NCBI RefSeq assembly: GCF_030816505.1
Contig: NZ_JAUSYB010000001.1
Coordinates: forward strand, 310,001 to 374,000
Length of the DNA stretch: 64,000 nucleotides
Direction of reading: 5' to 3'
Origin: Microbacterium sp. W4I20
Lineage (GTDB): Bacteria > Actinomycetota > Actinomycetes > Actinomycetales > Microbacteriaceae
The notes below the pieces were generated by a model. The model searched no databases. It saw nothing but the letters and a program-made list of their open reading frames with translations, and was not told where the DNA came from. Shown piece by piece: positions 49,586 to 54,450 of the stretch. Each line of letters opens with the position of its first letter. The first letter of the stretch is position 1. The position numbers were made by a program, and so were the translations under genes.

Positions 49586-50823
<1,238 letters not shown>

Positions 50824-50824
<1 letters not shown>

Positions 50825-51516
50825 TGCAGGCGAACGAGGGCAAGGCGCTCGAGACGAGCGTCGACGGAAAGTCGTTCGCGCGGATTCCGCTGCGCACCCG
50901 CGTCGTGATGCCGGATGACGACCTCGACGCGATCATCACCGAGTATGCGAAGGACGCCGTCCGCCCGGGCGACCTCCTTTTCGTGACCGAGAAGATCGTC
51001 GCCATCACGCAGGGCCGGTCGTACCGTCTCGACGAGATCCAGCCGCGCAAGCTGGCGCTGTTCCTGTCGAAGTACGTCACGCGCACGCCGTACGGCATCG
51101 GACTCGGCATGCCCGAGACGATGGAGATGGCGCTGCGGGAGTGCGGCACCCCTCGCATCCTGCTCGCCGCCGCCGTCGCCGCAGTGACGAAGGCGCTCGG
51201 CCGTAAGGGCGACTTCTACCGCATCGCCGGCGACAAGGCCCGCGCGATCGACGGACCGACCAAGCACACGATCCCGCCCTACAACGAGGCCGTGGTGCTC
51301 GGACCGAAGGACCCCCGCGGGGTCGCCTCACACCTCAAGTCGCTGCTGGGCGGAGAGCTGGAAGTAGCCGTCGTCGACATCAACGACCTCGGCGGCAACA
51401 TCCTCGGCTCGACCCTCGACAAGGATGGCGAGCGCCGCCTGGTCAAGATCCTCGGCGACAACCCGCTGGGACAGGGACTCGAGTCCACGCCCCTCGGCAT
51501 CGTCCGGGCGGTCTGA
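50824..51516 (+). CDS. Coenzyme F420-0:L-glutamate ligase-like protein
   Basis: A 230-residue protein resembling CofE/FbiB ligases: FARIPLRTRVV, GDLLFVTEKIVAITQGR near residue 50, FYRIAGDKARAIDGP, and a C-terminal VDINDLGGNILGS metal-site segment. F420 synthesis genes are not seen nearby, so the true substrate may differ. The ATG overlaps the rpoD stop by one base, implying coupled translation with the sigma factor. Confidence 0.8.
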
Positions 51517-52708: not shown

Positions 52709-53413
52709 GTGTGTGACACGACTTCCAGCGCCCTGCCTCGTGCGGTGATCTCCCGCTCGGCGCTCGCTGCTGCGGCATCCGCCTCCGTTCGCGCGGGGGG
52801 AGAGACCGCCGACCTGCGGCGCGATGCCTGGGGGCACGGCGTCCTCACCGTCGCGCAGGCCGTGACGGCGGCAGGAGCCGCCCAGGTCCTCGTGGACTCG
52901 GAGGGCGAGATCGAGGCGCTGCGCCTGGAAGGGATCACCGCCGTGACAGCAGGGACCCCGGACATCGATCCGGCGCTGCTCTACGGGCTGCCGGATGCCG
53001 ACGGCTCGCTCGCGACCCGACCTGTCCTGCGGCTCGCCGGTCGAGTCATCTCCACGAAGCGTCTTCGGGCCGGCGACGCCGTCTCGTACGGGTACACCTT
53101 CCGGGCGGAGACGGACACGACCGTGGCGCTGGTGACCGGCGGCTACGCGCAGGGGATCGTGCGCGCCCTCGGCAACCACGCCGAGGTCGAGATCGACGGC
53201 ATCGCCCGCCCCATCATCGGGCGGGTCGCGATGGATGTCTGCGTGGTCGACCTGCAGGGTGCCGACGCGGATCTCGGAAGCGAGGTCACCTACTTCGGCG
53301 GCTCCGGCCCCGCCGCCCCGGGGCTCTCCCGCTGGGCTGCACTCACTGGGATGACGGTCGGCGAGCTCGTCGCGGTCGCCGGATCGCACGCGGCACGGGG
53401 GTGGGAGGCATGA
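52709..53413 (+). CDS. Truncated alanine-racemase paralogue: C-terminal domain with catalytic Tyr, no PLP lysine
   Basis: A 234-residue protein from GTG 52709. Residues 10-95 retain only the first strands of an alanine racemase barrel, and the PLP-lysine motif (normally VKADAYGHG) reads LRRDAWGHG at 36-44, so Lys is Arg. About 150 barrel residues are then missing. A complete C-terminal beta domain follows: SYG with the catalytic Tyr at 127, GGYAQG at 144-149, and the Met-Asp motif at 175-176. Alone it cannot hold PLP in the usual way. It overlaps the next gene by 4 nt (ATGA). Confidence 0.88.
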   Translation: MCDTTSSALPRAVISRSALAAAASASVRAGGETADLRRDAWGHGVLTVAQAVTAAGAAQVLVDSEGEIEALRLEGITAVTAGTPDIDPALLYGLPDADGSLATRPVLRLAGRVISTKRLRAGDAVSYGYTFRAETDTTVALVTGGYAQGIVRALGNHAEVEIDGIARPIIGRVAMDVCVVDLQGADADLGSEVTYFGGSGPAAPGLSRWAALTGMTVGELVAVAGSHAARGWEA

Positions 53414-54450
53414 GCCGCCCCGAACTCCGGATCAGCAGCGCGACCTTCCGCGCCAACATCGAGGCGGTCCGTGCGCGCATCACGCCCTCAGCGCTCATGC
53501 TCGTGCTCAAGGACGACGCCTATGGCCACGGACTGCCCTGGGCCGTCGAGACCGCGGTCGCGGCGGGAGTCGAGTGGTTCGGCAGCTACGACGTGCGCAG
53601 CGGGCTGGATGCACGACGGATCGCCGGCGGCGGCGTGCGCGTGTTCGCCTGGGCCACATCGACGGATGCCGAGATCGATGAGGCGCTCCTGCGGGATGTC
53701 GAACTGGGCGTCGGCTCGACCGAGTACCTCCGGCGCATCATCGACCGCGCCTCGGTCCTCGGCACCCCTGCTCGTGTGCACCTGAAGATCGACACGGGTC
53801 TGCACCGCAACGGCATCCTCCCCGAGGATTGGGCCGGCGCCGTGGCCGAGGCCCGGCAGGCGGAGCGCGCCGGGCTCATCGAGCTCGACGGCGTGTGGAG
53901 CCATATCGCCGAGGCCAGCGACGAGGAGGATGACGAGGCGCAGGCGGCATTCCTGCAGGCGGTCCGCATCGCCGGCGAATCCGGGACCGCGCCGGCCTCG
54001 CGTCACCTGACGGCGTCTGCCGCATCCTGGTGGCGACCCGAGCTGCGGGGATCCGTGTCACGGATCGGCGCCTTCTGCTACGGCATCCGATCGGCGGACG
54101 GGCCGGAACTCGAGGGCGTCCGACCCGTCGCCGCACTGGTCGCCCAGGTGACAGAGCTGGTCGAGGGCGAAGCCGTGATCGGGATCGGCAGTTTCGACGG
54201 CGTCCCCTCCACACTCTCGGGCGCACCGGTCGGGACCCCTGCGGGTGCTCGCGTCCTGCGGACGATCGATCAGACGACGGCGACCGTCGCGGAGTGGCCG
54301 GGCATGCAGGTGGGCGACGAGGTGACGCTCTTCGGCCCGGGAAGCCACGGGGAATCCAGCGCGACCAGCCTTGCCGAGCGCATCGACACCGTGGGCGAGG
54401 AGATCCTCACCCGGCTGAGTCCCCGCGTGCGTCGCGTCGTCCTGGACTGA
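53410..54450 (+). CDS. Alanine-racemase-like PLP barrel protein lacking the catalytic Tyr segment
   Basis: A 346-residue fold-type III racemase. The barrel is full length: PLP Lys34 in LVLKDDAYGHG, HLKIDTGLHRNGI at 124-136 with the substrate Arg, VWSHIAEAS near 162, and SRIGAFCYGI near 217. The C-terminal domain is eroded: the SYG-containing strands are deleted (residues 252-264 read EGEAVIGIGSFDG), Met of the Met-Asp motif is Ile, and the C-terminal PLP Tyr is Glu (TVGEE). ATG 53410 overlaps the upstream stop (ATGA). Probably partners the upstream protein. Confidence 0.88.
   Translation: MSRPELRISSATFRANIEAVRARITPSALMLVLKDDAYGHGLPWAVETAVAAGVEWFGSYDVRSGLDARRIAGGGVRVFAWATSTDAEIDEALLRDVELGVGSTEYLRRIIDRASVLGTPARVHLKIDTGLHRNGILPEDWAGAVAEARQAERAGLIELDGVWSHIAEASDEEDDEAQAAFLQAVRIAGESGTAPASRHLTASAASWWRPELRGSVSRIGAFCYGIRSADGPELEGVRPVAALVAQVTELVEGEAVIGIGSFDGVPSTLSGAPVGTPAGARVLRTIDQTTATVAEWPGMQVGDEVTLFGPGSHGESSATSLAERIDTVGEEILTRLSPRVRRVVLD

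Follow-up and report, generated by a model that had tools for sequence, protein, structure and literature searches.

Textbooks present alanine racemase (Alr), an antibiotic target, as a symmetrical homodimer. What function should be assigned, then, to two overlapping genes that both resemble Alr, each of which is missing a catalytic residue that the other carries? This question is raised by genes A and B of Microbacterium sp. W4I20, which lie within a 64,000-nucleotide stretch of its genome (contig NZ_JAUSYB010000001.1, positions 310,001 to 374,000; hereafter 'the window'). A sequence-only reading of this DNA had proposed that the two proteins make up a heteromeric racemase whose single active site is composite. 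Our analysis points the same way, and the best explanation, to which we assign a probability of about 0.87, is that A and B would form an obligate heterodimeric, Alr-like racemase with a single composite site. The proposal draws on the partition of active-site residues between 106 A and 105 B sequences, on natural fusions in both orders, on 11 genomes in which no intact Alr was detected, and on purifying selection. The split is also broader than had been recognized, because it recurs, has been fused, and apparently substitutes for the ordinary enzyme in some genomes.

Two genes that share the features of one racemase

The features of the window that are relevant to this proposal are as follows.

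52709..53413, forward strand: gene A, encoding the putative 'C-domain' half of the racemase (234 amino acids, GTG start, stop codon included)
52817..52819, forward strand: Arg37 codon of A, at the site of the pyridoxal 5'-phosphate (PLP) lysine (Lys39 of Geobacillus Alr), in the motif LRRDAWGHG
53087..53089, forward strand: Tyr127 codon of A, equivalent to catalytic Tyr265' by alignment to Alr
53231..53236, forward strand: Met175-Asp176 codons of A, equivalent to Met312'-Asp313' by alignment to Alr
53410..53413, forward strand: ATGA, the start codon of B on the stop codon of A (four-nucleotide overlap, read from the sequence)
53410..54450, forward strand: gene B, encoding the putative 'barrel' half of the racemase (346 amino acids, stop codon included)
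53509..53511, forward strand: Lys34 codon of B, the PLP lysine (Lys39 equivalent) by alignment to Alr
54397..54399, forward strand: Glu330 codon of B, aligned with the substrate-gating residue Tyr354 of Alr

The coordinates, reading frames and ATGA overlap agree with the sequence-only reading. In profile searches, the product of gene A covers positions 1-122 of the 127 in PF00842 (99.9 bits) and matches PF01168 only as a sub-threshold stub, and the product of gene B covers positions 1-219 of the 220 in PF01168 (138.6 bits). The PF00842 match of B scores above the cut-off (45.3 bits), begins at position 35 and lacks Tyr265. Both proteins fall under the cut-off of 168 bits for TIGR00492, the NCBI equivalog model for alr (101.8 bits for A and 117.7 bits for B).

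Using Geobacillus numbering, A has Arg37 in place of Lys39 and retains Tyr265 (Tyr127), Tyr284, Met312 and Asp313, whereas B retains Lys39 (Lys34), Tyr43, Arg136, His166, Ser204 and Arg219 and has lost the strands that carry Tyr265. The barrel with its PLP lysine is therefore found in B and not in A, a PF00842 domain with both Tyr265 and Met312 is found in A, and neither polypeptide carries both catalytic residues. The alignment and the PF00842 match bear out what had been said of A: the Arg for Lys, Tyr127, Met175-Asp176 and a retained C-terminal domain. Its barrel, described as largely lost, is indeed reduced to a stub, but approximately 50 barrel residues remain. Likewise, B keeps Lys34 and the barrel and has lost the Tyr strands as claimed, but a later portion of its C-terminal domain is still present. 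Most of the 120 homologues of A listed are 221 to 243 amino acids long, and many have 234. Outside the window, the W4I20 genome carries two full-length Alr genes, one of which has Tyr354.

Reciprocal retention of active-site residues

We aligned 312 sequences and classed them solely on Lys39 and Tyr265, which yielded 111 A, 106 B, 94 full-length sequences and one fragment. Exact duplicates and 21 near-identical congener loci (L134-L154) are omitted from this alignment; in one of the latter, L152, B lies at the end of a contig and no A accompanies it. Removal of four edge-cut A rows and three L262 rows left 106 A and 105 B sequences for counting.

Residues that had no part in the classification are divided in the same manner. 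Arg136 is present in 105/105 B and 2/106 A sequences, His166 in 104/105 B and 0/106 A, and Arg219 in 104/105 B and 9/111 A (edge-cut rows included). Conversely, Met312 is present in 106/106 A and 2/106 B sequences, and Arg309 in 104/106 A and 1/105 B. The partition of Asp313 is less clean, with Asp also present in 49/105 B sequences. In known Alr enzymes, Tyr265 and Met312 are supplied by the partner subunit, and residues of the Arg136, His166 and Arg219 set belong to the subunit bearing PLP (PMC3485190, PMC3245724; cited papers, here and below, are drawn on in excerpt). Thus, B has retained the residues of the PLP-bearing subunit, and A has retained those of its partner.

Both genes are under purifying selection. 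Ratios of nonsynonymous to synonymous substitution rates (dN/dS) against 10 congeners (11 rows, with L249 repeating L131) range from 0.16 to 0.34 for A and from 0.16 to 0.33 for B, and so the elevated substitution rates that would betray decaying pseudogenes are not seen. Furthermore, 74 of 91 A-then-B pairs overlap by four bases (ATGA in 48, GTGA in 23 and TTGA in 3), which argues for coupled synthesis of the two proteins. By the same token, the ATGA overlap in the window would couple translation of B to that of A.

These observations suggest how a composite fold-type III PLP racemase might operate. The barrel of B would bind PLP via Lys34, with Tyr38, Arg133, His165 and Arg218 contributing to the site, and the C-terminal domain of A would cover this barrel, placing Tyr127 as the acid/base on the opposite face and Met175-Asp176 at the carboxylate of the substrate. 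The second half of the ancestral symmetrical dimer would correspond to the barrel of A against the C-terminal domain of B, and this half presumably decayed because a site is no longer held there. Complex formation, site geometry and catalysis are all predicted here from the sequences. We propose that an Alr gene was duplicated and that its copies then suffered reciprocal losses, on more than one occasion, and that in some lineages the halves were then joined into one chain that may act as a one-site pseudo-dimer.

Intermediate stages and one-chain fusions

Several stages of such a progression appear to be alive today. Two full-length tandem Alr genes, each with Lys39 and Tyr265, are present in 18 fetched genomes. 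Ten A rows, one of which is the A half of a fusion, retain 122 to 175 barrel residues and have Lys39 replaced by Asp, Ser, Pro, Thr or Gly. Among the remaining A rows, barrel length ranges from 78 residues down to 4. In three genomes of one genus (G049, G119, G174), the A part is a nearly barrel-less C-terminal domain fused behind B and in front of TsaE. Intact tandem genes, long-barrel A proteins without the lysine, stub A proteins, fusions in both orders and near-barrel-less C-terminal domains together form a natural series leading from homodimer to obligate heterodimer. We also observed that the putative one-site racemase and TsaE share one reading frame at L315, L316 and L317 of genus g50 (PF02367 at 96.4 bits in L315); no further PF00842 protein was found in these three genomes.

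One-chain fusions in the order B-A have named relatives in Gulosibacter and Pseudoclavibacter. Among the 38 that were aligned (the best 41 hits minus P0168, P0175 and P0191), Lys32, Tyr36, Arg135, His167, Arg220 and Tyr349 of the B half and Tyr515, Tyr534, Met563 and Asp564 of the A half are invariant in 38/38. Fusions in the order A-B (15 rows, some shortened) occur in Terrimesophilobacter/Parafrigoribacterium, a Microbacteriaceae metagenome-assembled genome (MAG) and Microbacterium G285. Two records conflict here: the genome of Terrimesophilobacter mesophilus DSM 19267 has one PF00842 protein, whereas an entry assigned to Parafrigoribacterium mesophilum has A and B fused in that order. Modeling covered single-chain fusions of relatives, with one model built from 15 rows, and in fold searches the B half of these models superposes on Alr chains. 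Because single chains were compared, the fold searches say nothing on the pseudo-dimer arrangement.

Fusions also bear on whether the two proteins might stay apart, with B acting as a solo, Tyr-less PLP enzyme and A as a regulatory or structural partner of an ordinary Alr. YggS-type proteins, which are Alr-like barrels that exist alone, provide a precedent for the former role. However, A retains residues that touch the PLP site of a partner, nature has joined the two parts in both the A-B and B-A orders, and genomes with the composite form exist that hold no detected intact Alr for A to regulate. We consider separate functions improbable.

Genomes without a detected intact alanine racemase

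Genome searches across the family, combined with reading of the loci, detected no intact Alr in 11 genomes of 98-100% completeness, among them Gulosibacter- and Pseudoclavibacter-like genomes. A fusion is the sole form in seven (G020, G100, G161, G136, G049, G119, G174), a pair is the sole form in one of 0.9 Mb (G015), and the remaining three (G192, G140, G077) carry two split pairs only. All 11 encode a D-Ala-D-Ala ligase (Ddl). These genomes are strong indirect evidence that the composite form works, the fusions point the same way, and in places it seems to replace the ordinary Alr.

Distribution within Microbacteriaceae

Searches with B and with A, together with locus reading, show that 58 or more of the 199 Microbacteriaceae genomes, in 27 of 85 genera, have A and B as a pair of separate genes, a figure that rises to at least 65 genomes and 29 genera when fused forms are counted. 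Since loci were picked from strong hits, these values are lower bounds and not a census. Elsewhere in the order, a sample of 102 genomes spanning 19 further families contains no case of a degenerate C-terminal domain beside an intact one; three of these genomes have no hit, and in G623 and G649 a single domain is present as two complementary pieces. The A/B pair is a recurrent feature of Microbacteriaceae, far beyond chance and beyond one locus.

Within Microbacterium, a threshold of E <= 1e-60 detects B in 242 of the 295 genomes searched. The 53 negatives include at least one genome (G285) with a diverged A-B fusion. Twenty B-negative congeners were checked: 15 have a single PF00842 protein, two have two, one has none, G285 has three PF00842 hits including its fusion, and a genome of 68% completeness also has three. 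Conversely, all 20 B-positive congeners checked carry an intact C-terminal domain in a separate frame of 214-453 amino acids, and in 18 of them the degenerate C-terminal domain of B is listed next to it. M. schleiferi FXH-192 has no pair beside parE yet has one elsewhere in its genome, and M. sp. cf332 has no pair beside parE and one PF00842 protein. The prediction that the genes would be an inseparable pair holds in that every separate B in the aligned loci, which derive from strong hits, had a neighboring A, but many genera have no pair at all.

Could A and B simply be functionless, decaying remnants of a duplicated alr gene? Each gene has lost half of the catalytic residues, and B is absent at the search threshold from 53 of 295 congeners (one of them with the diverged fusion), as might be expected of relics. 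Decay would not, however, maintain open frames, frequent four-nucleotide overlaps and purifying selection, nor would it preserve complementary active-site residues across 27 genera, including in some genomes without another detected Alr. We regard this explanation as extremely improbable.

More than one origin of the split

The split arose more than once, because the trees reject one origin. In a tree of 93 barrel sequences made by a quick search, a branch with a Shimodaira-Hasegawa-like approximate likelihood ratio (SH-aLRT) value of 99 parts Tyr354-type enzymes from Glu/Asp354-type enzymes, and split B proteins lie on both sides of this branch next to full-length ones. Approximately unbiased (AU) tests, all conducted on quick trees, reject a single origin of all B proteins (p 0.0004) and, less firmly, a single origin of B outside the alr locus (p 0.018); B parts from the alr locus may share a single origin, which the test does not reject (p 0.45).

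Genomes G192, G140 and G077, with two pairs each, are informative regarding the direction of loss. In FastTree analyses, B of the second pair lies near gene 1 of the full-length tandem pairs and its A lies near gene 2; in the first pair it is B, of the Asp354 type, that groups with gene 2. These trees suggest, with moderate support, that reciprocal loss went in both directions.

The probable substrate

Position 354 governs substrate choice in Alr (PMC4517790, PMC3245724, PMC3485190), and a lysine racemase has Thr, and a broad-spectrum racemase Ala, as its Tyr354 equivalent (PMC3485190). Among 94 B parts outside the alr-locus set, this position is Glu in 55, Asp in 35, a gap in 4 and Tyr in none. 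At the alr locus, 11 of 12 B parts have Tyr here and the remaining one has a gap, so composite sites evidently can serve alanine.

Glu354 is carried by Microbacterium, Frigoribacterium, Curtobacterium and Labedella, and Asp354 by Clavibacter, Herbiconiux (L089, taken as H. gentiana), Subtercola and Leifsonia. Residue and wall chemotype pair in 7/7 genera with a stated chemotype, including Curtobacterium with D-ornithine and Leifsonia with diaminobutyrate (Dab), although this is in effect one contrast because Glu and Asp form two groups on the tree. For the others, ornithine is found in M. schleiferi (PMC10978784 Table 2) and D-ornithine in most of the testaceum clade of Microbacterium (PMC10757982), D-Lys in Frigoribacterium (PMC7033078 Table 3), and Dab in Clavibacter (PMC9190974), Herbiconiux (as D- and L-Dab; PMC10011130) and Subtercola (PMC5945732). 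On a 60-row ParE tree, the rows lacking B are scattered, requiring at least five changes, and the Microbacterium chemotype is likewise patchy (PMC10757982). This parallel is only suggestive of a link to wall type.

The pair in the window might instead be a second alanine racemase with a composite site. Alr is the best-scoring family for both genes, and the alr-locus pairs and fusions carry Tyr354 in 11 of 12 B parts, with one gap. On the other side, Glu or Asp occupies this position in 90 of the 94 B parts elsewhere (four gaps, no Tyr), and W4I20 already has a Tyr354 Alr. We consider alanine a possible but rather unlikely substrate. Because the clade of the pair has Glu or Asp at position 354 and the genome also has a Tyr354 Alr, we somewhat favor a D-diamino acid (D-ornithine in Microbacterium) destined for the bridge of type B peptidoglycan. 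The pair would then be a candidate enzyme supplying D-ornithine or D-diaminobutyrate to such walls. The suggestion of a non-alanine substrate, made before any alignment, is plausible through Glu330 at the gating position, but is unproven; Cryobacterium has Dab without the pair.

Several observations weigh against our interpretation. Agromyces and Plantibacter have a Dab chemotype, and only one PF00842 protein was found in Plantibacter and in six of seven Agromyces examined. The same is true of four Cryobacterium genomes (Tyr354 in the two read) and of a Rhodoluna MAG. Cryobacterium contains Dab in peptidoglycan of type B2gamma (PMC7033078 Table 3), and R. lacicola contains D-Dab (PMC4156110). 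These genera indicate that D-diamino acids do without this gene in places, and for this reason we hold our preference for a diamino acid to be modest. In addition, a D-amino acid transaminase might provide the D-alanine of the 11 genomes in which no intact Alr was detected.

We also asked whether the presence of the pair strictly marks walls that contain D-diamino acids. This was not borne out, since only one PF00842 protein was found in Cryobacterium, Plantibacter, most Agromyces and the Rhodoluna MAG. As a separate observation, Asp follows the catalytic Tyr265 (SYD) in the only Alr found in Plantibacter and in Cryobacterium (L293, L306, L313) and in the full-length Glu354 genes L294, L296, L298 and L330. 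SYD is possibly a second route to accommodating diamino acids.

A more specific combined proposal has roughly even odds in our estimation, namely that the window pair is a D-ornithine racemase acting as a one-site obligate heterodimer, and also that the alr-locus Alr of Gulosibacter-like and Pseudoclavibacter-like bacteria and of a third genus separately became a one-chain, one-site enzyme.

Neighboring genes

The pair usually adjoins a parE-like gene (DNA_gyraseB, Toprim), and in Microbacterium an ATP-grasp gene mostly lies on the side opposite the parE-like gene. The divergent ATP-grasp ligase had been taken to support an envelope role. This argument is unsupported because, of 17 pair-less congeners, 16 likewise have an ATP-grasp gene next to the parE-like gene (identity to the ATP-grasp protein of the window is 54-59% in eight of these 16 and 35-37% in the other eight), and the ATP-grasp and CofE-like neighbors were dropped as candidate partners.

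The CofE-like protein is encoded at 50821-51516 on the forward strand of the window (PF01996 at 45.9 bits, far under the cut-off of the F420 CofE equivalog), and its gene follows a sigma-70 gene in many Microbacteriaceae loci, whether or not the pair is present. Elsewhere in the W4I20 genome (L046, C1:2231171-2236542), the second full-length Alr has His at position 354 and adjoins genes for a D-Ala-D-Ala ligase, a VanY-type carboxypeptidase and an OmpR-type response regulator, in what looks like a vancomycin-resistance-type cluster.

Comparison with known racemases

Taken together, A and B carry the two domains (PF01168 and PF00842) and the catalytic Lys and Tyr of the fold-type III PLP enzymes Alr and DadX. 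In contrast to these homodimers with two identical sites (PMC3485190, PMC3245724), the system described here consists of two polypeptides, or of one fused chain, with one proposed site. The B protein of the window also resembles Lyr, Bar and BsrV in that the Tyr354 equivalent is replaced. Lyr and Bar are Alr-fold enzymes in which this residue is Thr391 and Ala393, respectively (PMC3485190). They differ in being homodimers with Thr or Ala at a position where split B proteins have Glu or Asp, and Glu330 of the window B accordingly does not match the Thr or Ala of that group. The Lyr and Bar chains score below several Alr chains for both A and B. Asn134, which follows Arg133 in B, does match Asn174 after the PLP-site Arg of Lyr, but it is non-discriminating because full-length Alr proteins of Microbacteriaceae mostly have this Asn as well.

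Among the best matches in the open-access literature, we found no account of an alanine racemase that is split, heteromeric or fused, and the database names of these proteins, where given, are mostly plain 'alanine racemase'. Heterodimers and pseudo-dimers derived from duplicated homodimeric enzymes constitute a general class, and the A/B system resembles them in combining a gene duplication with complementary losses, the outcome being an obligate pair or a one-chain pseudo-dimer. Within this class, one bacterial family appears to have broken the symmetry of Alr repeatedly.
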